A stretch of 64,000 bases of DNA from Natrarchaeobaculum aegyptiacum. GTDB lineage: Archaea > Halobacteriota > Halobacteria > Halobacteriales > Natrialbaceae. Numbering within the stretch: the first letter of the stretch is position 1; each line of letters starts with the position of its first letter. This document shows positions 15,898 to 51,236 of this stretch, in pieces. Where the stretch lies: contig NZ_CP019893.1 of NCBI RefSeq assembly GCF_002156705.1, forward strand, positions 1 to 64,000, written 5' to 3'. A program made the translations under genes and the position numbers. Under the pieces are notes generated by a model, which was not told where the DNA came from, searched no databases, and was given only the letters and a program-made list of their open reading frames with translations.

Positions 15898-15923
15898 GAT
15901 ATTAAAACCAATTCAGATAATAA
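15898..15923 (+). promoter_or_regulatory. AT-rich promoter or operator of the HAC-domain lipoprotein
   Basis: GATATTAA (15898-15905) and GATAATAAC (15915-15923) lie 32-57 bases before the ATG at 15955. They could include the TATA box and resemble the GATA/TATC words in the divergent promoter at 14329-14344. Confidence 0.35.
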
Positions 15924-15954: not shown

Positions 15955-16575
15955 ATGGATCTAACACGACGGCGAGCACTCAAAGTGGGTGCCGGTGCGC
16001 TATCGATCACGATTGCCGGGTGTACCGCAGATTCACCAGCGGAAGCACCCGACGACGAAGACGATCTCGAGCAGACACCGGAGCAGCCAGACGAAACCGA
16101 CACTGCGGACGAATCAGCTCCAGACGAACCATCGGAGCGTGCCGACGAAGACCAGGACGAAGACGACGAGACCGACGAGGCGGTGGCTGGATCGAACCCA
16201 GAGACGCAGTCACTGGAACTGCTGGCCGAAGCGAGCGTCGACCACGATCACGCGTGCTTTCATGCCGAGTACGACGACCGAACGCCGCTCGAGGCTGGTG
16301 ATTCGGTCGAGGAATCTCCAACCGAGAGCCACACACACGTCATCTGGGATGTCACGTACGACGGCGATAGTGGATACGTTCGGTTCGATGCGGACGCACA
16401 CGCCCACGGCGGACCGATCGTCTTCTACACAGCCGGTGGTTCGGCCACCCCTGTCGACGGAACCGAACTCGTACAGGACACCGTTCCAGACGAGGACTGT
16501 AGTAAGTTGGACGAATATCTCCAGGTCGAACCCGACGACGGCCAGATCGTCCTCGAGGTGACCACCCTGGAGTGA
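15955..16575 (+). CDS. Tat lipoprotein with one HAC-x-H domain (candidate extracellular metal-binding protein)
   Basis: A 206-residue exported protein. The N-terminus has a Tat signal (LTRRRALKVG) and lipobox (ITIAGC), so it is anchored outside the membrane. An acidic, repetitive linker covers residues 25-85 or so. Residues 88-206 form a domain found five times in this window: VDHDHACFH, a D-x-R-x-x-L-x-AG turn, HTHVIWDV, GYVRFD, a His-rich DAHAHGG, VFYTAGG and a second Cys in EDC. His and acidic residues cluster in positions able to bind zinc. I recognise no described family. The in-frame ORF begins at 15763, but ATG 15955 is the only start giving a Tat signal. Confidence 0.8.
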   Translation: MDLTRRRALKVGAGALSITIAGCTADSPAEAPDDEDDLEQTPEQPDETDTADESAPDEPSERADEDQDEDDETDEAVAGSNPETQSLELLAEASVDHDHACFHAEYDDRTPLEAGDSVEESPTESHTHVIWDVTYDGDSGYVRFDADAHAHGGPIVFYTAGGSATPVDGTELVQDTVPDEDCSKLDEYLQVEPDDGQIVLEVTTLE

Positions 16576-16815
16576 CCGCTTAACTGCGGAGTCCGTCGTT
16601 GTCGTCACGACGGTCGATCGACGAGTCAGAACGCGGCTCTCCCAGCGCTCTCTGTACGGCCAGCCTCGAGAACGAGCACGTTTCGCTAGCGGTGGCTGTT
16701 CGCCCGTGTGCATCGTGGGCAGTAACTCTTCTCGAATGATAATTAGTCCAAGCCAATATTAAAAGACCTCCAAATCATAATATCTTTAAACAGTTAAAGC
16801 CACGTTGTTATTGTA
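16576..16815. promoter_or_regulatory. Intergenic region with AT-rich promoter for the 929-residue exported protein
   Basis: Within these 240 bases the last 80 are markedly AT-rich: GATAATTAG at 16738-16746, CCAATATTAAAAG at about 16753-16765, and TCATAATATC at 16775-16784. The last of these reads GATATTATGA on the other strand. A TATA element is probably included (TATCTTTAAA). The words resemble those at 14329-14344. Confidence 0.45.
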
Positions 16816-19605
16816 ATGACTCTCGATAACCAACAGGTAGGCCGGCAGACACTCAAATGTGGAGCGATCTTGCTCGTCGCACTGGTAATTGGCAGTGCCA
16901 CACTCGTCGGTGGGGTTGGTGCCGTAGGCGACGTGCCGCCCGAAGAGGCTGAGGGTCCTGAATTGCTCATCGAAACAAATGTCGATAACGATCATGCATG
17001 TACACATGACGAAGCAGACAACAGGACAGCGCTCGATGCGGGTGACTCACCCGAAGACGCACCTGTCGTAACGGACGATCACGTCATCTGGAACGTCACC
17101 ACCGACGGGGGCGAGGGATTCGTTCGGTTCGACAACACTGAGCACGAATCGTACCCTGGCCTCGACTCGTGGGTCTTCTACTACGCTGACGCTGACCTAG
17201 AGCCCACCGACGGCGAGGTTCTGGAGACTGGAGACGTGCCTGAGTGTGGCCTCGATAACTACGCCAATGTTTCCACGCCCGAAGACGGAGTGTTCGATCT
17301 GCAGATCACGAGCGATGAATACGAAGAAGTCGACGACGCTGCCGGAGAGATCAACGTCGAGGACGACATCAACGCTGACGACGAGAGCTTCGACGTGACG
17401 ACGTCGGACTACACGGAGCTCACTGACGGGGTCGTGCTCGTCGAGGACGGCCAGGATAACGGGGAAACCTACGACTCAGTCGGCGACGGGGAAACGCTCA
17501 CCGTTGACGTTGTCGACGCTGGCTTCGACCTCAACGACGGAGAGGACGTTACCGCAACGCTGTACGAAAGCGATAGTCAGGAGAACGAACTCGACACCGA
17601 CAGCACGACCGTCGAGGAGGCCGTCGGTGACGAGATCGAGGAGTTCGAAATCGTTGACCGCAGCACGGACGAAGTGGCTGCGTACGTCCACGGCGACCAC
17701 TGGCACGACGAACTGCCGCACGTCGACGAGGGAGCGGACGTCTCACTCGGTGCGAACATCGAGGATGCCGACGGTGAGGAGATCGACCTGAGCGACGAGG
17801 AATACTCGCTCGGGATCGAACTCGCCGACGAAGCTGAGGAAGATGTCGTCACCTTCCACGAGCACGGCGACCACGTCCACATCGAGGGCGAAGAGGAAGG
17901 CCACACTGAGGTCGTCTTCCAGCTCGTCCACGACGGCCACGTCGAGTACGAGACGCCCTCGATAGCGGTCGAAGTCGAACACGACGAGGACGAGACCGAG
18001 TTCGAGGAGGTCAGCACCTTCGAACTTCACCAAGACGGTGAGACAGTCGCCTCGATAGATGGAGGCGAGTGGGATGGTGAGCTTCCCGCTATCGAAGAGC
18101 CACCGTTTGATGATCGCTTTGTCGCTGTTACGCTTACTGCTACTGCTGAAGACGAGCACGGGAACGAAATTGAGCTCGGTTCCGACTCTCCCTACGAGGT
18201 CGGAGTTGAGCCTGACGACGATGCCGCTGCAGAACTGCTAAGTATTGATGAGCATGGAGACAGCGTTGTACTGGATGGTGAAGGTAGTGGCACAGCCGAT
18301 GTCACGTTCCAGATCCGCGACGCGGATGGCGTCGAGTATGAGACTCCTGTGGCGAGTGTCGATGTAGACGTGCCACCAGGGGTCAAGTTCCTTGTAGAGA
18401 CGAATGTCGACCACGGCCATGCTGCAACCCACGGGCTATACGATGGGCGGACGGCGCTCGACGCTGGTGCTGCACCCGGTGACGGCCCAGTGCTAGTGGA
18501 TGATCACGTCATCTGGAACGTCACATATGACGGGACTGCAGGCTACGTCACGTACGACAGTGACGGACACGATATTTATCCTGGCCTCGACTCGTGGGTC
18601 TTCTATATCGCTGACGGCGAAGCAGAACCCGTTAACGCAGAGGTTCTCGAACGCGGTGAAGTTGAGGGGGTTGAAACCGATACTCTCGAAGAATATATTA
18701 AGGTTGAAACGCCAGACGATGGGACGATCGACTTCCAAGTCAGCAGGGACCTTTCGGCGAACAGTACCACTACAGAGAACGAGTTCGCGGGTATCGTTGC
18801 TGACGACGAGCCGTTGCCGGTCGCTGCTGACGGACTCACCGATGCGGATGGAGCCACTATCGATGACGACGAGGCAACGGTTCAACTAGTTCGCGACGGG
18901 ACGGTACTCGCTCAAACGCACGGCGTGTCGATCGACGACGGCGAAATCTCCGACGCGACGATCGACACCGAAGCGATCGCCGACGACGTCGAACCCGGAC
19001 CGGCGACGGTCGAGATTGCGGGAGTCGAGACCGAGACCGAGGCGCAGGTCGAACTCGTCCACGAAGCGCACTCCCTCGAAAACGGATTCACCACCACATC
19101 GCTGCCACAGCCGGCGGCCCTACACACCGAATCGGTTGACACGATCGAGTGGTGGGACACTGACAACCAGAGTTACGTCAGTCTCGGAGCACAGTACGGC
19201 GACGGTGACACCATCGCTAACCCGGATGACATGCACCGCGGACTGTACATTGGGGCAGCAGATGATGCGAGACTCGGGTACGAATTCGAGACCGATAGCA
19301 AACCAGCCCCGGGTGACGCCCACCTCTCCAACGGATGGCACCTCGCGAGTTCCAACTTCGCAGTCGGTGAGGACGATGGGACTCGAACCCTCGAGAAGGA
19401 CCTGGTGAACGTCGATCCGGCTGCCGACGGTGTCACGGTCTTCGACTACGAGCAGCGGACACAGCTAGACCCATCGGCATCGATCGCTGGATTTGACACG
19501 TACTGGGTGTACGTCGATGATCCCGAGCGAACCGACCGTGGGATCGTCAGACCGAACTACGATCCAGTTGACCGGTCGGATATTCTCCACGGAACGGACG
19601 AATAA
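16816..19605 (+). CDS. Large exported protein with two HAC-x-H domains and two HWH-type beta domains
   Basis: 929 residues with a Sec-type signal peptide (CGAILLVALVIGSATLVGG). Order: HAC-x-H domain (about 48-163), an acidic domain (165-270), an HWH domain (275-390) with HGDHWHDELP, HEHGDHVHIEG and LVHDGHVEYETP, then a second HWH-type domain (395-520) in which most His are lost. A second HAC-x-H domain (523-643) follows, but with Ala in place of the first Cys. The rest is a C-terminal beta-rich region (about 700-929). The HWH domain also occurs inside ZnuA at 47904-49298. Most likely secreted or loosely attached and metal-binding. No C-terminal anchor or catalytic motif is seen. The next gene starts 30 bases downstream and is probably co-transcribed. 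Confidence 0.8.
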   Translation: MTLDNQQVGRQTLKCGAILLVALVIGSATLVGGVGAVGDVPPEEAEGPELLIETNVDNDHACTHDEADNRTALDAGDSPEDAPVVTDDHVIWNVTTDGGEGFVRFDNTEHESYPGLDSWVFYYADADLEPTDGEVLETGDVPECGLDNYANVSTPEDGVFDLQITSDEYEEVDDAAGEINVEDDINADDESFDVTTSDYTELTDGVVLVEDGQDNGETYDSVGDGETLTVDVVDAGFDLNDGEDVTATLYESDSQENELDTDSTTVEEAVGDEIEEFEIVDRSTDEVAAYVHGDHWHDELPHVDEGADVSLGANIEDADGEEIDLSDEEYSLGIELADEAEEDVVTFHEHGDHVHIEGEEEGHTEVVFQLVHDGHVEYETPSIAVEVEHDEDETEFEEVSTFELHQDGETVASIDGGEWDGELPAIEEPPFDDRFVAVTLTATAEDEHGNEIELGSDSPYEVGVEPDDDAAAELLSIDEHGDSVVLDGEGSGTADVTFQIRDADGVEYETPVASVDVDVPPGVKFLVETNVDHGHAATHGLYDGRTALDAGAAPGDGPVLVDDHVIWNVTYDGTAGYVTYDSDGHDIYPGLDSWVFYIADGEAEPVNAEVLERGEVEGVETDTLEEYIKVETPDDGTIDFQVSRDLSANSTTTENEFAGIVADDEPLPVAADGLTDADGATIDDDEATVQLVRDGTVLAQTHGVSIDDGEISDATIDTEAIADDVEPGPATVEIAGVETETEAQVELVHEAHSLENGFTTTSLPQPAALHTESVDTIEWWDTDNQSYVSLGAQYGDGDTIANPDDMHRGLYIGAADDARLGYEFETDSKPAPGDAHLSNGWHLASSNFAVGEDDGTRTLEKDLVNVDPAADGVTVFDYEQRTQLDPSASIAGFDTYWVYVDDPERTDRGIVRPNYDPVDRSDILHGTDE

Positions 19606-19635: not shown

Positions 19636-21390
19636 ATGAAATACTTCAGATTACTCGTCATTGCAATCGTTGTCGGATTCGTAGCCACAGCTGGTGGTAT
19701 GACTGTTGCAGCCGCACAGGGCGATCCACCGGGCCCACCGGCAAGTTTCTACGGTGAAGCCGTCGATGAAGATGGGAATGCTGCAGACAGTGGGACGACG
19801 ATCGTTGCTGTCGTTGAGGGAGAGGTTGAGGGGCAAATTGCCGTCGAAACCGCAGGTGAGTACGGTGGCCCCGATGCCTTCGACGAAAAACTGAGTCTAG
19901 ATAGCGCTGCGGGGAATGAAGTATCGTTCCGCGTCGAAGATGCATCAGGTCCGGCAGCGCTCGAGGATCCAGTCGATTTAGCGCCCGGACTGAGCGAACA
20001 AGACCTCACGTTCCCTGCCGGGACGTTCGACGACAGCCCGGACAATGGGGATGATGGAAACGGCGGTAGCGGCGACGACGGCGATGATACAGATGTCGGC
20101 TCCGGAACTGTCGAGTTCCTCATCGAAACAGACATCGATAACGATCACGCATGCACTCATGGGGAATACGACGAGCGCACACCGCTCGAAGCGGGCAACT
20201 CACCTGACGATGCACCCGTGGTTGTAAAAGATCACGTCATCTGGGAGGTCACCTACGAGGGTGACGAGGGATACATCCGGTTCGATAACAACGAGCACGA
20301 TGTGTACCCTGGCCTCGACTCGTGGGTCTTCTATCAGGCCGGTGCCGACCTGTCGCCCACCGACGGAACCGTTCTCGAAACTGGAGACGTGGATGAGTGT
20401 CCATCGCTTGACGGATACATGGAGGTCGAGACACCATCCGACGGAGTCTTCGATATCGAAGTTACCGAAGACGGCGACGTCACAGGACCGGCCAGCGGTC
20501 GAGAAGACGATCAAGAAGAGGAAGACGAGGAAGACGAGGAAGAAGACGAGACGGATGACGAGGAAGTCACCGTCGAAGATGTGGTTGAGACGGTCGACGA
20601 GGCTGAACCAGATGGTAAAGCAGAAATCGAGATCGATGAAGATGCTGACGGGAGTGACGAAAATATCACTGTCGGCACCGGTGATGAAACCGAGAGTGTC
20701 GAAGAGATTGTACTTGCGGATTACGTGGAGTCGGTGAGCATCGAGGAGTACACCGAGAACGACGAAGTCGTCGAAACCACGACAGCGTCAATCAAACAGT
20801 ACCTCACCGAAAATATCCAAAAGGACGTGGAGGAGGATGGCGAAGAGACAGATGCCGATGACAATGCTACTGCAGACGTCGACACGCCTGAGGTAACTGT
20901 TAGCACCGTCGCCCGAATCACCGTCGGTGACGATGGCGGGGAAGACACACCTGCGGCAGTCACGATGAGTGTCGCTGCTGACGATATTAACGAGTCCGAA
21001 CAGACGAGTATCTTCCACCAGACCGATGGTGGCTGGGAAGAGTTGCCAACTGAGGTCAAAGAAGAAACTGACGAAAAGGTCGTCTTCAGCGGTGAAACCA
21101 GCGGCTTCTCACTGTTCGCCGTCGCCGAGGTCGAGGGCGAACATGAAGAGGACACTGAATCAGACCCGGATTCTGAACCGGACTCCCAGCCGGACCCAGA
21201 TCCTGAACCGGACTCTCAACTCGAGCCTGAGACCGAACCCGAAGGCGAAGGGGACAGTGACTCGGTCGAGGAATCCGATGACTCTATACCCGGATTTGGG
21301 ATGATAACCGCAGTTGGTGTGCTTCTTGGAGCGATTGTCGCCCGCCTTGGATGGCGTCCAGGAGATCTGGGGCAGCAGAACAGGAATTAG
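19636..21390 (+). CDS. PGF-CTERM surface protein with one HAC-x-H domain
   Basis: 584 residues. A Sec signal peptide (LLVIAIVVGFVATAGG) is followed by a short beta domain (about 30-130). Then come an acidic Gly/Asp linker, a HAC-x-H domain (160-275: DIDNDHACTH, DHVIWEV, GYIRFD, YPGLDSWVFY, DEC), a poly-Glu/Asp stretch, a PGF-pre-PGF-type domain (about 350-510, with GETSGFSLFAVAE), and a Pro/Glu/Asp spacer. The C-terminus is PGF-x-hydrophobic-Arg (PGF at about residue 552), the archaeosortase recognition and lipid-anchoring tail. So it displays a putative metal-binding domain on the cell surface. It follows the 929-residue protein after 30 bases. Confidence 0.83.
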   Translation: MKYFRLLVIAIVVGFVATAGGMTVAAAQGDPPGPPASFYGEAVDEDGNAADSGTTIVAVVEGEVEGQIAVETAGEYGGPDAFDEKLSLDSAAGNEVSFRVEDASGPAALEDPVDLAPGLSEQDLTFPAGTFDDSPDNGDDGNGGSGDDGDDTDVGSGTVEFLIETDIDNDHACTHGEYDERTPLEAGNSPDDAPVVVKDHVIWEVTYEGDEGYIRFDNNEHDVYPGLDSWVFYQAGADLSPTDGTVLETGDVDECPSLDGYMEVETPSDGVFDIEVTEDGDVTGPASGREDDQEEEDEEDEEEDETDDEEVTVEDVVETVDEAEPDGKAEIEIDEDADGSDENITVGTGDETESVEEIVLADYVESVSIEEYTENDEVVETTTASIKQYLTENIQKDVEEDGEETDADDNATADVDTPEVTVSTVARITVGDDGGEDTPAAVTMSVAADDINESEQTSIFHQTDGGWEELPTEVKEETDEKVVFSGETSGFSLFAVAEVEGEHEEDTESDPDSEPDSQPDPDPEPDSQLEPETEPEGEGDSDSVEESDDSIPGFGMITAVGVLLGAIVARLGWRPGDLGQQNRN

Positions 21391-21768: not shown

Positions 21769-22476
21769 CTAGTTCTCGGCCTCTTCGAGAGTCGGATAGA
21801 GTCGGTGTAGTTTCGTTCGAGCGTCCTCGTTTCTGAATTGCCAGTTGATCGTGACATCGACCTCATTGCGCTCGGCTTCCCACGCAGCGACCTCCGACTG
21901 GAGGGTCGCTGCGTCGGGAATGCGGCGGTTGAGACACTGGCTCTGGAGTGAACTCCAGACGAGTTCGGCCATATTCAGCCAGCTGCCGTGCGTGGGCGTG
22001 TAGTAGAACTCGAACCGGTCGAGATACTCGCGTGCTGTTTCGGGCGGGAAGAACCGATAGAACGCGGCGGGATTGTGCGTGCTGAGGTTGTCCAGGACTA
22101 CCCGGATGCGGTCTGCATCCGGGTAGTCGTTAGCGATCGCTACCATGCAGTCGATCCACTCGGACGTTCGTCGGCGTTCCGTCACGTGAAGGCGACACTG
22201 GCCGGTCAACGGCTCAGTCGCAACGTGGAGCATCCGGGTTCCGTTGCGTTCGTAGTGATGATCTGTTCGAGCGACCGCTCCTGGTGACGCCGGGAGCGGG
22301 TCGCGGACCTGCTTGCGAAGTTCCTTGCTGGACTCGTCGAAACAGACGACTGGACGGCTCTCGTCGTATGGTTCTTCGTACAGCGAAAGGATCGTTTCCA
22401 TCCGATAGACGAACTCGGCGTTCTCTTTGGGTGGAATCAGCCAGTACTCAGAGCGGTGTGGCTTCAGGTCGTTTTT
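21769..22476 (-). CDS. IS630 family transposase, C-terminal catalytic reading frame (DDE)
   Basis: This frame continues the transposase after the A-run (NDLKPHRSEYWLIPPKENAEFVYRM by frame reading). The three catalytic acidic residues are visible: Asp in VVCFDESS, Asp in RVVLDNLSTH, and Glu in GSWLNMAELVWSSLQ. About 235 residues in total. The first ATG in this frame is at 22401, too late for a complete domain, which supports production by frameshifting from the upstream frame. Catalytic residues and length are intact, so it is likely recent. Confidence 0.85.
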   Translation of the reverse strand, partial: KNDLKPHRSEYWLIPPKENAEFVYRMETILSLYEEPYDESRPVVCFDESSKELRKQVRDPLPASPGAVARTDHHYERNGTRMLHVATEPLTGQCRLHVTERRRTSEWIDCMVAIANDYPDADRIRVVLDNLSTHNPAAFYRFFPPETAREYLDRFEFYYTPTHGSWLNMAELVWSSLQSQCLNRRIPDAATLQSEVAAWEAERNEVDVTINWQFRNEDARTKLHRLYPTLEEAEN

Positions 22477-22900
22477 TTAGACGCTGGCGGACAGCTTCCT
22501 CGGAGATCGAGTCGAACTCGATCTCCTCGAGAGTAACAAGACGATCGGCGAGCAGGGCGTACGTCCAGCGCGTGCGGCCGTCCGGTGGCTCTGAGCAGGC
22601 AAGTGCAACGAGGTGAGCTTCGGCTCGGCCGTCGAGTTTCGGCTCGTAGTCACGATCGGGCTTGCGGCGATGAATCGCCGCAATCCCTCGCTCGGTGTAC
22701 GCTTTGCGCGCCCGATGGGGTGTCCCGACCGAACAGCCGACGTGCTCACAGATGGCCGCATCTGTGAGCCCGTCGTCAGCCTTCAGAAGGATCCGTGCAC
22801 GGGTGATGTCCTCTGCTCGGTGTGTGCCCTTCGTAACGAACTCCTCGAGTTCAGCACGTTCTTCGTCAGAAAGATCGACAGTGTACTTCTTTCGGCTCAT
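22448..22900 (-). CDS. IS630 family transposase, N-terminal (DNA-binding) reading frame
   Basis: A 150-residue first frame with helix-turn-helix segments (LTDAAICEHVGCSVGTPHRARKAYTERG) typical of the Tc1/IS630 DNA-binding half, followed by the linker toward the catalytic domain (RWTYALLADRL and ISEEAVRQRLKK). At 22472-22478 the coding strand has seven A's. In the zero frame translation ends 10 codons later. Reading one base fewer at this tract joins it to the catalytic frame. IS630 elements often use slippage at such A-runs, so the two frames may still make one active protein, but an inactivating insertion is also possible. Confidence 0.85.
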   Translation of the reverse strand: MSRKKYTVDLSDEERAELEEFVTKGTHRAEDITRARILLKADDGLTDAAICEHVGCSVGTPHRARKAYTERGIAAIHRRKPDRDYEPKLDGRAEAHLVALACSEPPDGRTRWTYALLADRLVTLEEIEFDSISEEAVRQRLKKRPEATPL

Positions 22901-44903: not shown

Positions 44904-45728
44904 ATGTCGATCGATCAGAATACGTTGACGCGGCGGAAGGTGCTCGCGACGTCCGGTTCGCTATCGGTGCTCGGGGTGGCTGGTTGTCTCGATGGTGAAG
45001 ACGAGCCAGCCGACGATGCGGGGGCGGCAGCTGATGATGGAGACGACGACTCCGCTGACGCCGACGGAACGGAGACGGGCGAGTCGACCGTTACGTTGCT
45101 CGTCGAAAGTGCCGGTGGTCACGGTCACGACCACGACGACCACGATCACGACGACCACGATCACGACGACCACGACCACGACGACCACGACCACGACGAC
45201 CACGATCACGACGACCACGACCACGACGACCACGACCACGACGACCACGGCCTGAGCGAACACGAGATCGACCACGCCTGCGGCCACATGGAGTTCGACG
45301 AACGAGAACCCCTTTCGGCCGGTGGTGATGAAGACGACGCGCCAACGATCTCCGACACGCACCAGCCGTTCGACGTTGCCCTCGACGGCGGAGAAGGGTA
45401 CGTCATCTTCGAGGTCGACGACCACGATCACGACGACCACGACCACGACGACCACGACGACCACGACCACGACGACCACGATCACGACGACCACGATCAC
45501 GACGACCACGATCACGACGACCACGATCACGACGACCACGACCACGACCACGATCACGACAACGGAACCTTCGCGTTCTTCTCCGACGTCGCCGGCGCAA
45601 TCGAAGTCGTCGACGGGCACGTCGAGTACGAGACCGACCACGTCGACGAGTGTGACTACATAGAAGAGTACTCGGTCGTCGAACTCCACGACGGACGTGC
45701 CGTTCTTCGGCTCAGCGCCGACCAGTAA
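44904..45728 (+). CDS. Tat lipoprotein with a HAC-x-H domain interrupted by long DHDHD repeats (candidate metal sponge)
   Basis: 274 residues. Tat signal (LTRRKVLATSG) and lipobox (LGVAGC) indicate a lipid-anchored exported protein. After an acidic linker the HAC-x-H domain begins at about 69 and is split by two His/Asp runs: about 71-115 and 172-218, each a period-five DHDHD repeat, giving dozens of His. Between them lie EIDHACGHMEFDERE and GEGYVIFEVD, and after them FAFFSDVAG and HVDEC. The second run replaces the YPGLDSW segment of the other copies. High-capacity zinc (or copper/nickel) binding is the simplest reading. Promoter is in 44788-44903; the GATA-type words of locus A are not seen there. 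Confidence 0.85.
   Translation: MSIDQNTLTRRKVLATSGSLSVLGVAGCLDGEDEPADDAGAAADDGDDDSADADGTETGESTVTLLVESAGGHGHDHDDHDHDDHDHDDHDHDDHDHDDHDHDDHDHDDHDHDDHGLSEHEIDHACGHMEFDEREPLSAGGDEDDAPTISDTHQPFDVALDGGEGYVIFEVDDHDHDDHDHDDHDDHDHDDHDHDDHDHDDHDHDDHDHDDHDHDHDHDNGTFAFFSDVAGAIEVVDGHVEYETDHVDECDYIEEYSVVELHDGRAVLRLSADQ
45115..45248 (+). repeat. In-frame 15-base tandem repeats encoding DHDHD (first run)
   Basis: Units of GACCACGATCACGAC or with GACCACGACCACGAC alternate, about nine units. The GAT/GAC third-base choices vary between units, indicating expansion followed by drift. Translated in the lipoprotein frame as repeated Asp-His-Asp-His-Asp. Confidence 0.95.
45419..45560 (+). repeat. In-frame 15-base tandem repeats encoding DHDHD (second run)
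   Basis: A second array of the same 15-base unit within the same gene, about nine units with one shortened unit (DDHDDHD near 45450). Separated from the first by the central part of the HAC-x-H domain. Confidence 0.95.
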
Positions 45729-45863: not shown

Positions 45864-47453
45864 TCAGTCGCTGCAGGTGTGTCGATAGATGTGCTCGGTA
45901 TCGGTTTCGCGGTCTGTCGGCCGGTCGAGGGTATCCAGCGTAATCTCCTCTGTGACCTCGAACATCCTGATGTGCGAGAGTTCGACGTCGTGTTCGTCGG
46001 CGTAGACGGTACAGATGTGGTCGCCGAAATTCGCGGGTAGTTCGTCGTCAGGCCCCGACCGTCGCACGCTGTTCATGAAAAACCGTTGGCGGTACGTATC
46101 GTGCTGTGTCTGGAGCTGGGCGTCTGGTCGGTCCCAGGTGAACTCCCTGTCGTTGAAGACGTCGAGGCGATCCCCGTCGGTCGTCTGCGCACCGAAGACG
46201 TAGTATCGGTCGGTCGTCCGTGGCTGGGGAGCAAAGACGCTCCACTCTGGCTGGACGATGCCGAGACTTTCTGCGGTCATATGCACGTACTCGCCGCCCG
46301 GCGTCTCCGCGACCTCGTGATTGAGTCGATGCTGGTCGTAACTCCCGTCGTCGACGATCGCGCCAGCGTTGAGCACGAGGACCGCGACGATCATCCCAAG
46401 TGCGACGACGACCAGCGCGAGTGTCACAGTGGCGACGACACGCTTCAGGACATCGAACCGTTCGGGTCCAAGCTGTCGGTCCGGGAGTGACCGAGCGACC
46501 CGTCGCAACGTTTCCCAGGGAACGACCTCGACGGGATCGACGCCGAGGCGTCGGCACAGACGGCGACCGTCCTGCCAAAAGGCCGCTGGCACGAACAACG
46601 CGAGACCAGCCAGTGCGACGTATGCGAACGCGCCGATCCGGACCGTGAGTGCGAACGAGAGGTGACCACCGACGAAAAGCACAAGCAGCGGGAGTCGTAG
46701 ACGGCCACGGAGAGCGACGAGCAACCAGCCCCCCAACAGCATGTAGAACCACAGCATCCCACCGTAGGTCAGAAGCGTCGGGAACTCACGGAGAACGTCC
46801 CCGAGGAGGAACGTCATTTCGTCGATACCGAACACGAGCGGCGCGGCCTCCCCGCTTCGCCATAACGCGGATTCGCTCTTGTGAACCCCGTTGAGGACGT
46901 ACATGAAGACCATCTGCCCGAGCGCGAGAGCCGATGCAACACCCACGACAGACCGTCGTGGTACGCGATCGGCATGGACGGCGTCGACCGACCAGCGCTC
47001 ACCGAGGGGGAGAAAGATCGCCCAGAAGAGCAACAGACGAAACAGGGTGTCCGCATAGCTGAGGACGAACGGGTTGTGGTGATCGAGTGAGACGACGAAC
47101 AGAAACGATAGAATTGTGGCTGTTCGAGTCCGATAACCCACGATCAGAGCCAGCGCGAACAGTACCTGCAACCCCAGTAGCCCGGCGATGAGTGAGGGGT
47201 CGCTCGTGAGATAATATACCGAGATGGCGTACTCTGGCGTGTTCTCCCGTGCGACTCTCTGTGTAACGACGCCGCCGTCGGTGTAGTAAAACGAGAAGTT
47301 TCGGGCCCGGAGGAACACGTCGGCAACGATGAGTACTCCGACGAGGATCCGGAATACTGCGAGTGACCGAGCGTCGATGCGGAAGCAATCGAGAACGTAC
47401 TCACGGGCAGAGACGGCGAGTCGAGCGAGAGACGGGCGTGTCCTGCGGTTCAC
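45864..47453 (-). CDS. HTTM domain membrane protein
   Basis: About 529 residues. The HTTM (vitamin-K-dependent gamma-carboxylase-related) membrane domain covers about 20-330 with multiple helices. Conserved-looking pieces are RIDARSLAVFRILVGVLIV, FSFYYTDGGVVT, SLDHHNPFVLSYADTLFRLLLFWAIFLPLG, and FMYVLNGVHKS. A C-terminal extracytoplasmic domain (about 390-529: EWSVFAPQPRTTDRYYVFGAQTTDG) follows another helix. HTTM enzymes other than carboxylase are poorly known. GTG 47453 (M-NRRTRPSLARLA) is preferred because the upstream in-frame 65 residues lack haloarchaeal composition. It lies between the His-rich lipoprotein and znuA, on the opposite strand to both. Confidence 0.82.
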   Translation of the reverse strand: MNRRTRPSLARLAVSAREYVLDCFRIDARSLAVFRILVGVLIVADVFLRARNFSFYYTDGGVVTQRVARENTPEYAISVYYLTSDPSLIAGLLGLQVLFALALIVGYRTRTATILSFLFVVSLDHHNPFVLSYADTLFRLLLFWAIFLPLGERWSVDAVHADRVPRRSVVGVASALALGQMVFMYVLNGVHKSESALWRSGEAAPLVFGIDEMTFLLGDVLREFPTLLTYGGMLWFYMLLGGWLLVALRGRLRLPLLVLFVGGHLSFALTVRIGAFAYVALAGLALFVPAAFWQDGRRLCRRLGVDPVEVVPWETLRRVARSLPDRQLGPERFDVLKRVVATVTLALVVVALGMIVAVLVLNAGAIVDDGSYDQHRLNHEVAETPGGEYVHMTAESLGIVQPEWSVFAPQPRTTDRYYVFGAQTTDGDRLDVFNDREFTWDRPDAQLQTQHDTYRQRFFMNSVRRSGPDDELPANFGDHICTVYADEHDVELSHIRMFEVTEEITLDTLDRPTDRETDTEHIYRHTCSD

Positions 47454-47903
47454 GATTGACACCCGGTGAGCGTTACCGGACGAGTTGGGTATTAATTCCA
47501 ACGACGGGTTTAATATCGTGCCGATGTTGGCGGAGACCCTGAATAACGAGGGAACTGCCCTCGAGAACGCTATCAAACTCCGTTCTCGATAGTCGATAGG
47601 ACGCCACGGAGGAGACTGGACGTCTCGAGAGGGTGACTTCGTACGCAACTCGGCCCCGGGAGAGACGACAGATGGGCCGCCATCGAGCTATACTAGCCAC
47701 TGCACGTCAGTGCACACCTGATCGTCAGACGGATCGACGATCGGTGTGTAACTCGTCGCAGTTGGTACTATGCCATGGAACCGGACGACGAGATCGACAG
47801 GCACTGACCAGGTTGCTAGGACAGACTCCTGTCACCGCCACGAATTATTAAATAGAGAGAGTTAAATAATAATACTTTTAACGGAGCGCCGCCAGCTACC
47901 GAT
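47454..47903. promoter_or_regulatory. Divergent region between the HTTM gene and znuA
   Basis: 450 bases without a supported gene. It holds the palindromic element at 47688-47771 and, at 47841-47881, a very AT-rich znuA promoter with CGAATTATTAAATAG and TTAAATAATAATACTTTTAA. The latter words resemble the A/T-rich elements upstream of the locus A genes. The HTTM promoter (minus strand) probably lies near 47480-47520 (TTAATACCC on that strand). Confidence 0.5.
47688..47771 (-). repeat. Dispersed palindromic (MITE-like) element, copy 2
   Basis: Reverse orientation relative to the copy at 2968-3052. The shared core reads CCACTGCACGTCAGTGCACACCTGATCG on this strand's plus listing (47697 onward). 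Ends are CTATACTAG and GGTACTATG. About 84 bases, similar along the full length to copy 1 with scattered substitutions. It is non-coding here. Confidence 0.85.
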
Positions 47904-49298
47904 ATGGATTTCACACGGCGATCAGTCCTCACGACCGGTGCTGGAGCTGTTACGCTCGGGACGCTCGCCGGCTGTCTGAGCGACCCTCTGGAGAGCGGGA
48001 GCGGCGAGGGTGGATACGCCGCGTTCTTCGCACTCTGGGACTGGGCTAACCAGGTCGCAGGCGACGAGATCGAGTTCGAAAATCCCGTCGACACGGGGGA
48101 GATGGGTCACGGCTGGGAGCCCGACGGCAACCTCGCCCCGGAAATCGCCTCGAGCAAGGTCTTCGTTTATCTCGACACGCCGGAGTTTGCCTGGGCACAG
48201 GACGTCGTCGCGGACCTCGAACGGGACTACGAGGGCGAAGTCGAAGTTATCGACGGTCTCGAGGGGATGGGGCCGTACCTCATCCCGTTCGACGGTGGCG
48301 AGGACGATGCGCTGCCTGAACCCGACCACGACCACGAGTTCGATCCCGACGACGTTTCTCGAGACCGCTTCGACTTCTACGACCTCCGATCGAACGACCA
48401 GCTGGGGTACTGGCACATCGATCACTGGCACGGCGGTGTCCCCGACGTTCCCGTCGACGACAGCGTCCCGATCGGGGCGGTCTTCAGGGACAACCGGGAG
48501 CGTGTCGTCCCGCTCGGTCCCAACGAGGCGTTTCAGTTCGACGCGCGGCTGGCAGCGGGAGCACCCGATGACGTTCTCGAAATCGAGTCTCACGGCGATT
48601 CGGTCTCGTTGATCGGTCACGAGACGGGGGCAACGGAGATCGTCTTCGAGCTTCGACACGAGAACGAGGTCGTCTACGACACCGACGCAGCCCCGATGAG
48701 CATCGACGTCGTCGAGGAGGTCGACGGCGGTGCTGGGGAGTTCCACGATCCACACACCTGGGTCGATCCCGTTCTCGCACAGCGGATGGTCGACACTATC
48801 GCAGATGGCCTCGCCGACGTCGACCCGGACAACGCCGACGTCTACGCCGCAAACGCCGAGGATTACAAGAACCGCCTCGCCGACATCGACAGACAGTTCG
48901 AGGAACTCACAGAGAACGCCGAGCGCGACGTCGCCGTGTTCGTCGCCCACGATTCGTTCCAGTACGTCGAACGACGGTACGATTTCGAGTTACACACGCC
49001 AGTGGGCATCACACCCGACGCCGCCGAGTCCCTCGACGACGTCGCCGACATGATCGATGTCGTCGAGGAACACGACATCGACACGATTCTCTACGACCCG
49101 TTCGAGGCGCCGGACGACGAACAGATGCCGAGCGCAGCCCGAATGCTGTTGGAGAACAGCCCCGCAACCAACGCCGAACCGCTCACTCCAGCCGAGGGAA
49201 CGACCCACGAGTGGGCCGACCAGGGCTGGGGCTGGGTCGAACAGATGGAAGAAGTGAACATTCCCTCGCTCGAGAAGGCGCTGGGTGTCCACGAGTAA
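47904..49298 (+). CDS. znuA: Zinc-type ABC substrate-binding lipoprotein (ZnuA) with an inserted HWH domain
   Basis: 464 residues. Tat signal FTRRSVLTTG and lipobox LAGC give an anchored exported protein. The cluster A-I metal-binding fold is split: an N-terminal lobe (about 30-138) with the first His in EMGHGWEP, and a C-terminal lobe (about 276-464) with ligand His in FHDPHTWVDP and AHDSFQY and the acidic ligand near ILYDPFEAP. Between them, residues about 139-275 hold an HWH beta domain (YWHIDHWHGGVP, IESHGDSVSL, RHENEVVYDT) related to domains of the exported protein at 16816-19605. Bacterial ZnuA has a short His-rich loop at this point. Followed by znuC and znuB on the same strand. Confidence 0.9.
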   Translation: MDFTRRSVLTTGAGAVTLGTLAGCLSDPLESGSGEGGYAAFFALWDWANQVAGDEIEFENPVDTGEMGHGWEPDGNLAPEIASSKVFVYLDTPEFAWAQDVVADLERDYEGEVEVIDGLEGMGPYLIPFDGGEDDALPEPDHDHEFDPDDVSRDRFDFYDLRSNDQLGYWHIDHWHGGVPDVPVDDSVPIGAVFRDNRERVVPLGPNEAFQFDARLAAGAPDDVLEIESHGDSVSLIGHETGATEIVFELRHENEVVYDTDAAPMSIDVVEEVDGGAGEFHDPHTWVDPVLAQRMVDTIADGLADVDPDNADVYAANAEDYKNRLADIDRQFEELTENAERDVAVFVAHDSFQYVERRYDFELHTPVGITPDAAESLDDVADMIDVVEEHDIDTILYDPFEAPDDEQMPSAARMLLENSPATNAEPLTPAEGTTHEWADQGWGWVEQMEEVNIPSLEKALGVHE

Positions 49299-49395
49299 TG
49301 ACCTCACGGCTTCACTGCACCACTGCCACCGTCGGTCACCGACGCCAGATAGAAGAACTAAACCGGTCGGCACTCGAGAATCCAGTAGGATCACC

Positions 49396-50139
49396 GTGAG
49401 TCAGGTCGTCACCGTCGAGCACGTTTCGTTTGCCTACGGCGAAAAACTCGCCATCGATGACATATCGCTGTCCGTCGAGCAGGGAGACTTCCTCGGGCTT
49501 ATCGGCCCGAACGGTTCGGGCAAGACGACGTTATTGCATCTCATGCTCGGCCTCCAGCAGCCAGATCACGGCACCGTCGAGCTGTTCGGTGAACCGGCCC
49601 AGGAGTTCGAGGATGGCCAGCGCATCGGCTACGTCGCCCAGCGCTCGACCGACAGAGGCGGGACGATGCCGATTACCGTTCGCGAGGCGGTGACGATGGG
49701 CCGGTTCGCACACGTCGGCCATTCGCGACTGAGCGACGAGGATCACCGGATCGTCGAGGAGGCCCTCGAGACCGTCGGCGTCGCGGACCTTGCCGGTCGG
49801 CGGATCAACCAGCTCTCGGGTGGACAGCGACAGCGTGCGTTTATCGCGCGGGCACTCGCCTCCGAGGCCGATCTGCTCGCACTCGACGAACCCACCGTCG
49901 GCGTCGACGCCGAATCCCGCGATCAGTTCTACGGCCTGCTCGACGACCTCAACCGGCGGGGAATCACGATCATCCTCATCGAACACGATATCGACGTCCT
50001 GACCAGACACGTGAACAAGATCGCCTGTATCAACACGGAACTGTACCACCACGGAGATACCGTCTCGTTCCTCGAGAGCGACGCGTTAGCGGAGGCCTAC
50101 GGCGCGGCCCACGGCGTCGTCGAACACGACCACCCATGA
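49396..50139 (+). CDS. znuC: Zinc-type ABC transporter ATPase (ZnuC)
   Basis: 247 residues. Walker A GPNGSGKTT, Q-loop VAQRS, signature LSGGQRQRAFIARAL and Walker B LLALDEPTVG match metal-importer ATPases. GTG 49396 is the likely start (M-SQVVTVEHVSFAYG), because the ATG 111 bases earlier would overlap znuA by 14 bases and add an atypical 37-residue stretch. The C-terminus has several His (YHHGDT, AHGVVEHDHP), usual in ZnuC. The stop overlaps the znuB start (ATGA). Confidence 0.92.
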   Translation: MSQVVTVEHVSFAYGEKLAIDDISLSVEQGDFLGLIGPNGSGKTTLLHLMLGLQQPDHGTVELFGEPAQEFEDGQRIGYVAQRSTDRGGTMPITVREAVTMGRFAHVGHSRLSDEDHRIVEEALETVGVADLAGRRINQLSGGQRQRAFIARALASEADLLALDEPTVGVDAESRDQFYGLLDDLNRRGITIILIEHDIDVLTRHVNKIACINTELYHHGDTVSFLESDALAEAYGAAHGVVEHDHP

Positions 50140-51236
50140 GCCTGGATACACGAACCGAGGAGCAAGTCGAGCGAAGCAGTAGCCGCCTCGCGTGGTTCCT
50201 CGGCGACTCGACGCGGGAACGACTCGAGTTCGGCGGCATCGTCGTGACGGGGCTGCTCGCGACCCTGATGATCGGCTTCATCCTCCTCGACTGGCTCCGG
50301 TTTGCGCCAGAGTGGGCCGCGGTCGGTCCCTACGCGGCAGTGGCCTTCGAGCAGTTCCGGATCGTGGGGGCCTGGATGGACGTATACCTCGGGACGAACG
50401 TCTTCCGTCACCCGTTCATGTGGCGGGCGATCGCGACGGGCGTCCTCATCGGGATCGTCGCACCGCTGGTCGGGACCTACCTTGTGCACCGCCAGATGGC
50501 GCTCATCGGTGAAACGCTGGCCCACACGGCGTTTGCGGGCGTCGCAGTTGGCCTCCTGTTTATCGCCGTTACGGGCTGGCACGGTTCGCTGCTGCTCGTC
50601 GCACTCGTCGTCAGCGCGCTCGGAGCGATCGGTCTCCAGCGGCTGACCGACCGGACCAACACCTACGGAGACGTCCCCATCGCAATCGTCCTGAGCGGGA
50701 GCTTTGCCGTCGGCACGTTACTCATCAGCTGGGGTCGTGACTTCGCCGCGATGGCGATCGACATCGAGGGGTTCCTGTTCGGGAGCCTCGCGATCGTCAC
50801 CGTCGAGGGAGCACGGATGGTCGCTGTCCTCACCGTCGCTGTCGTCGCCGTCGTCGCCGTTACCTACAAACAGCTGCTCTTCATCACGTTCGACGAACAG
50901 GCCGCTCGCGTCGCACGGCTGAACGTCGACCGGTACAACACCCTGTTGATCGTCATGACTGCGGTGGTCGTCGTCGGTGCCATGCAAATTCTTGGCGTGA
51001 TCCTCGTCGCCGCGATGCTCGTGATCCCGGTTGCAACCGCCTCACAGCTCGCCCACAGCTTCCGGGAGACGCTGTACCTCTCGATTATCTTCGGCCAGAT
51101 CGCGATCCTCGGCGGCCTCGCGTTCTCGATCGCTGCGAGTCTTCCCCCCGGTGGGGCGATCGTCGTGGTTGCGATCGGCTTTTACCTCCTGGCGATCGCG
51201 TTTTCTGGCCGATCGACGGCGATCTCGATGCACTGA
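50136..51236 (+). CDS. znuB: Zinc-type ABC transporter permease (ZnuB)
   Basis: 366 residues with about eight to nine transmembrane helices. Cluster 9 family features: GIVAPLVGTYLVHRQMALIGETLAHTAFAGVAVGLL, LFGSLAIVTVEGAR, and MQILGVILVAAMLVIPVATASQLA. The N-terminal 50 residues are polar and longer than in bacteria. Overlaps znuC by 4 bases, so the transporter is one translational unit. It ends 73 bases before the next gene, which has its own promoter. Confidence 0.93.
   Translation: MSLDTRTEEQVERSSSRLAWFLGDSTRERLEFGGIVVTGLLATLMIGFILLDWLRFAPEWAAVGPYAAVAFEQFRIVGAWMDVYLGTNVFRHPFMWRAIATGVLIGIVAPLVGTYLVHRQMALIGETLAHTAFAGVAVGLLFIAVTGWHGSLLLVALVVSALGAIGLQRLTDRTNTYGDVPIAIVLSGSFAVGTLLISWGRDFAAMAIDIEGFLFGSLAIVTVEGARMVAVLTVAVVAVVAVTYKQLLFITFDEQAARVARLNVDRYNTLLIVMTAVVVVGAMQILGVILVAAMLVIPVATASQLAHSFRETLYLSIIFGQIAILGGLAFSIAASLPPGGAIVVVAIGFYLLAIAFSGRSTAISMH

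Follow-up and report, generated by a model that had tools for sequence, protein, structure and literature searches.

We identified a discrete, predicted Ig-like domain, here called the HWH domain, that is inserted in a ZnuA-type substrate-binding lipoprotein of the haloarchaeon Natrarchaeobaculum aegyptiacum and recurs in an exported protein encoded in the same window, the 64,000-nucleotide stretch analyzed here from a single-contig 3.93-Mb haloarchaeal genome (Table 1). Conservation, genomic linkage and a rare promoter element are consistent with a system in which the insert probably captures zinc and loads it into ZnuA while co-regulated surface proteins feed or buffer it, most likely by passing zinc on. 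Zinc capture at the archaeal surface is little studied, and the module described here offers a domain outside Pfam and NCBIfam, a defined triad, a set of partner proteins, and a promoter element pointing to a regulon.

A predicted Ig-like insert in ZnuA

The ZnuA-type protein begins with a twin-arginine signal and the lipobox AGC (Cys at 24), and PF01297 spans residues 39–404 with a score above its gathering cut-off (149 versus 29 bits). Its gene is followed by those of an ATPase and an ABC-3 permease, and the closest NCBIfam profiles, all below cut-off, are AztC for the binding protein, AztA for the ATPase and AztB for the permease. A full-length AlphaFold model with 69 homologues as input (mean pLDDT 89.7, pTM 0.83) reveals a two-lobe architecture with a long joining helix at residues 308–337 and core ligands H69, H284, H349 and D398, and Foldseek matches the core to AdcA, AdcAII, YcdH and AztC with E-values down to 1e-16. 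The core ligands and the family suggest that the metal of this system is zinc.

Table 1. Features of the zinc-associated loci, with nucleotide positions in the window except for the last row, which gives genome coordinates
Feature	Position	Strand	Basis or remark
ATTAAA-N10-ATAATA	15901..15922	+	upstream of DHA lipoprotein
DHA-domain lipoprotein (start MDLTRR)	15955..16575	+	
ATTAAA-N13-ATAATA	16758..16782	+	upstream of exported protein
Exported protein, 929 aa, two HWH and two DHA domains	16816..19605	+	
HWH copy 1 of exported protein, triad intact (HGDHWH)	17614..17988	+	
HWH copy 2 of exported protein, triad lost (GGEWDG)	17983..18378	+	
DHA-domain surface protein, PGF-type C-terminus	19636..21390	+	TIGR04213 4e-8; PGF tail read in translation
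Lipoprotein with long (HDDHD)n tracts, weak DHA match	44904..45728	+	translation; DHA profile 48 bits
ATTAAA-N13-ATAATA	47847..47871	+	upstream of znuA
ZnuA-type substrate-binding lipoprotein, 464 aa, with inserted domain	47904..49298	+	PF01297 E=2e-43
Core ligand H69 (GHGWEP)	48108..48110	+	68/68 where aligned
Inserted Ig-like domain (HWH domain), residues about 155–270	48366..48713	+	AlphaFold; homology to exported protein
Triad H171-x-x-H174-W175-H176 (HIDHWH), predicted metal site	48414..48431	+	conservation; beta-hairpin (model)
Core ligand H284 (DPHTW)	48753..48755	+	Lys in 11 class-B (DAKFF/DVKFF) ZnuAs
Core ligand H349	48948..48950	+	69/69 in ZnuA alignment
Core ligand D398	49095..49097	+	69/69 in ZnuA alignment
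ZnuC/AztA-type ATPase	49285..50139	+	PF00005; AztA is best NCBIfam, below its cut-off
ZnuB/AztB-type (ABC-3) permease	50136..51236	+	PF00950 E=7e-57
Second insert-bearing ZnuA, the genome's own paralogue (L071)	G000:C1:555209-556459		class B

The insert is discrete and extra to the ZnuA fold. It lies between H69 and H284, which confirms an earlier note on this DNA that had placed it between the first and second metal-ligand histidines, and it occupies the position of the His-rich loop of bacterial ZnuA. That note had taken residues of about 139–275 to form a whole domain; structure prediction of ZnuA agrees that a domain is present, tightens its limits, and confidently assigns it an all-beta, Ig-like sandwich of about 115 aa (pLDDT about 89–97 within ZnuA; 95.8 for the isolated domain predicted from 62 copies). 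Among the best 50 Foldseek matches of the insert, Ig-like, Rib and S-layer domains predominate, with a TM of about 0.45, and its sequence gives weak matches to solved structures (best E 0.058). Profile searches of the insert matched no Pfam or NCBIfam family, and the HWH domain, absent from both, may have been described earlier outside the open-licence literature.

Comparison of the insert with the exported protein bears out the proposed match to two tandem domains there (residues about 275–520), with E-values for copies 1 and 2 of 1e-13 and 3e-7 in composition-adjusted blastp and of 1.6e-14 and 2.6e-8 in phmmer. An independent whole-genome search found the same places again and added a second insert-bearing ZnuA at G000:C1:555626. 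In the AlphaFold model the HxxHWH motif spans a hairpin between strands 165–171 and 174–177, and no other part of the domain is as well conserved among ZnuAs: H171, H174 and W175 are present in all 69 insert-bearing ZnuAs, where they are better conserved than core ligand H284, and H176 is present in 63, with Asp in the remaining six. Of the motif pattern first quoted to relate the copies, the ESHGDS and RHENEV motifs are variable and only HxxHWH is invariant; exported copy 2, though homologous, has lost the triad. Stand-alone copies of the domain contain more additional histidines than ZnuA copies, and His tracts often lie beside the domain. This conserved hairpin triad and its context suggest that HxxHWH binds zinc.

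A second class of insert-bearing ZnuA proteins, class B, comprises 11 sequences with the motif DAKFF or DVKFF, including the genome's own paralogue, in which Lys stands at the place of H284. Nearly all class-B proteins have His-rich stretches beside the HWH domain, and the paralogue has them on both sides. The suggestion that the domain stands in place of the His-rich loop therefore holds for the window ZnuA, but in class B the His-rich stretches are kept around it.

Partner proteins and a rare promoter element

Three adjacent proteins of the exported-protein locus share a second unlisted domain, DHA (DHAC-H ... DHVIWNVTYDG ... YPGLDSWVFY), which also adjoins znuA in relatives. The triad of exported-protein copy 2 is lost in the window protein and in relatives L073, L074 and L100, and all three copies are intact in L066. 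The lipoprotein with HDDHD tracts is located 2.2 kb upstream of znuA, weak-DHA proteins stand immediately 5′ of znuA in L045, L046, L076 and L077, and this lipoprotein is likely part of the zinc system. An HTTM-domain membrane protein (45864–47648, − strand) is encoded on the opposite strand between it and znuA; relatives have the lipoprotein immediately 5′ of znuA. About 26 kb separate the exported-protein locus from the znu operon in the window, a gap that contains an IS-type transposase and unrelated genes; the transposase is IS630-like, consists of two ORFs (DDE_3 and HTH; 21769–22900), and lies just 3′ of the PGF-type protein.

Fetched regions of 51 genomes with the domain contain 58 insert-bearing ZnuAs and 56 stand-alone HWH proteins. 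For 38 of these stand-alone proteins an insert-bearing ZnuA is encoded no more than 5 kb away; 35 of them are on the same strand, mostly less than 250 bp upstream, and many such partners are lipoproteins with HDDDHDHD tracts. One relative (genome G032, locus L074) encodes a DHA-domain protein, an orthologue of the exported protein, a PGF-type protein, ZnuA and ZnuCB in one contiguous run. The domain was expected to occur only in zinc contexts, and mostly it does lie in zinc loci, but for 16/56 stand-alone proteins no zinc context is visible, and a distant copy, L143, is without the histidines. Neighbors of unlinked stand-alone copies are ordinary, including a kinase, FGAM synthase, Arg-tRNA synthetase and an enolase-like protein; an Nramp transporter is encoded 1.7 kb from one unlinked copy.

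Inspection of upstream sequences yielded the search pattern ATTAAA-N9-14-ATAATA, and because this pattern was derived from window promoters the window matches alone are no test of it. The element has only four matches in the 3.93-Mb genome, three of them in the window and the fourth at G000:C1:2229952 upstream of a dipeptide/nickel-type ABC permease. Related loci totalling 1.59 Mb contain 13 distinct exact matches, 10 of them outside the window, and every one falls where an HWH, DHA or insert-ZnuA gene begins. With up to two mismatches allowed, the element occurs upstream of 54/74 insert-bearing ZnuAs versus 47/2000 random stretches and 1/66 permeases, although these element counts overstate the evidence because related promoters are not independent. 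Class-A ZnuAs carry it in 54 of 61 cases, with a spacing of 13 in 53 and a position 67–72 nt before the twin-arginine codons; the count in class B is 1/11. Since its spacing is fixed and it occurs upstream of unrelated genes, the element is best explained as a shared operator or specialized promoter, which suggests co-regulation of znuA and the surface proteins. The earlier note held that the domain physically connects the two loci. The loci are indeed tied by the shared domain, its very strong linkage to znu loci across genomes, the rare promoter element, the contiguous run in the relative and the His-rich HWH lipoproteins adjoining znuA; a shared domain, though, is not a physical connection, and it fits parallel zinc capture just as well.

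Distribution, descent and proposed zinc capture

The HWH domain is found in 51 of 292 haloarchaeal genomes and 22 of 77 genera. PF01297 is found in 241/292, and most of the matches listed lack the length needed for the insert; because insertless ZnuA-family proteins are common in the same archaeal class, the HWH domain is an accessory. Named relatives with the domain belong largely to alkaliphile genera, among them Natronorubrum, Natronolimnohabitans and Natrialba. A tblastn search found no copy of the insert in PLSDB plasmids. In a tree of 172 domain copies the window insert is among 58 ZnuA copies that form a supported clade, and the label of ZnuA versus stand-alone changes nine times, at least five of them forced by supported branches, in a tree limited by few columns and possible gene conversion. 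A tree of the ZnuA core with the insert removed splits the insert-bearing proteins of haloarchaea into two groups, with the Izimaplasma protein far off, and may leave room for one haloarchaeal origin. Three cases, all resting on metagenome bins, extend the range of the domain: an Izimaplasma ZnuA (L067, metagenome contig) whose core looks bacterial and whose loop contains two copies, a Thermoplasmata ZnuA (L062:394-2040) with a copy in the loop and a second at the C-terminus, and a Myxococcales-binned contig (L064) that encodes a three-copy lipoprotein with no znu genes nearby.

We propose that the HxxHWH hairpin would bind Zn(II) next to the cleft of ZnuA and that bound zinc would then be loaded into the core site formed by H69, H284, H349 and D398, so that the insert would take over the job of the flexible His-rich loop that it replaces in this class. 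Lipoproteins and exported or surface proteins with one to three domain copies, often near poly-His/Asp tracts, would enrich zinc outside the cell, at its surface, and most likely hand it over to ZnuA, from which ZnuBC would import it. The sequences themselves show the homology, the conserved triad, the genomic linkage and the shared promoter element, and the fold is predicted from them; zinc binding, loading of the core, co-regulation and zinc release by surface proteins to ZnuA are the steps that we infer. Direct protein-to-protein hand-off is plausible by analogy with the streptococcal protein PhtD, from which zinc passes to AdcAII in vitro with no stable complex seen (PMC3842936).

Hand-off and parallel capture are the two live options. 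Parallel capture, in which surface proteins buffer zinc and ZnuA takes free zinc released nearby with no direct hand-off, stands at only slightly less than an even chance: for 27/58 insert-bearing ZnuAs no HWH protein is encoded on the same strand within 5 kb, which means that a partner is not obligatory, the lack of a stable PhtD–AdcAII complex fits it as well, and in Corynebacterium diphtheriae without the transporter, ZnuF and ZnuG may act to sequester zinc (PMC12445094). Against it stand the close operon linkage and the presence of one domain in both donor and acceptor, which suggest a matched interface. The insert might instead be a docking domain for homotypic contact between surface protein and ZnuA, or for the S-layer, with a triad that is structural and not a transit site. 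Such a role would suit Ig-like domains, which often mediate contacts, the nearest Rib and S-layer Ig-like folds, and the retention of exported copy 2 after loss of its triad, but it is rather unlikely given that the triad is the best-conserved part of the domain in ZnuA and that His tracts often flank the domain. Import of another metal (Mn, Ni or Co) in place of zinc seems quite improbable: the PF01297 and ABC-3 families do include Mn and Fe importers and class B has Lys for the second core His, but the window ZnuA core resembles that of zinc-type proteins in having three His and one Asp, the closest, sub-cut-off NCBIfam profiles are those of a zinc system, and the partner lipoproteins are poly-His proteins. 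Chance similarity between acidic halophile proteins through a neutral Ig-like insertion has practically nothing left to recommend it, since Asp/Glu-rich bias can inflate scores but the composition-adjusted blastp match, conserved triad, linkage and promoter element all reject it.

Beyond capture of zinc by the insert, loading of ZnuA and supply by surface proteins, we tentatively put forward a wider model, whose prospects fall somewhat short of even. The HWH domain would be a mobile zinc-capture domain, different from the Pht and anchored-repeat domains, that is recurrently inserted in the same ZnuA loop, in haloarchaea and in the Thermoplasmata and Izimaplasma metagenome assemblies. Zinc would be relayed from domain to domain, starting at the surface proteins and ending at ZnuA, with a single dedicated operator in control, and this archaeal system would have arisen by convergence with its actinobacterial and streptococcal counterparts.

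Comparison with known zinc systems

One close parallel in arrangement is the streptococcal polyhistidine-triad (Pht)/AdcAII system. Both systems place HxxHxH on a beta-hairpin (HIDHWH and HGDHWH here, by prediction), repeat the motif in surface proteins, and form an operon with a zinc-binding lipoprotein. To our knowledge, AdcAII itself is without the triad domain. The folds differ, in that the solved PhtD domain consists of two small sheets with flanking helices rather than an Ig-like sandwich. The zinc ligands of PhtD, H83 on strand 2 and H86 and H88 on strand 3, are placed like the residues of the HxxHWH hairpin (PMC3842936). The PF04270 profile matches 3 of 62 HWH copies (best E 0.0023; where shown, 16.5 bits against a cut-off of 27 and over the motif only), and no Pht structure is among the best 50 Foldseek matches of the HWH domain. 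TIGR03769 has no match in the window genome and none over cut-off in 292 haloarchaeal genomes, and the TIGR03772 match is confined to the ZnuA core at residues 282–401. The HWH domain belongs to neither the PF04270 nor the TIGR03769 family.

Two further systems add zinc-recruiting parts to ZnuA-type proteins. AdcA has a C-terminal ZinT fused to ZnuA as an accessory domain, and the Thermoplasmata ZnuA carries an HWH copy at the same end; ZinT, however, is not an HWH domain, and the window domain is an internal insertion. AztA, AztB and AztC are the best NCBIfam matches of the window znu genes, although below cut-off, and we know of no domain common to AztC and AztD. The accessory protein AztD hands zinc directly to AztC (PMC6689063).

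The actinobacterial anchored-repeat transporter (TIGR03769/03770/03771/03772) likewise has a metal motif common to its binding protein and co-regulated surface proteins, in tandem in some, but the motif is HxD/HxH and not HxxHxH, and anchoring is by sortase or membrane as opposed to lipoprotein or PGF-type here. In C. diphtheriae this motif is present in ZnuA, besides the core ligands H63, H317 and H383, and in the membrane or surface proteins ZnuE, ZnuF and ZnuG (PMC12445094, PMC6711530). The system, which also includes CmrA, is zinc- and Zur-regulated, and its surface proteins are reported to bind zinc (PMC12445094). If the archaeal system is confirmed, the Pht triad, the actinobacterial HxD/HxH motif and the archaeal HWH domain would represent three apparently unrelated surface domains that converged on aiding ZnuA-type proteins; in two of the three cases the binding protein has the domain as well.
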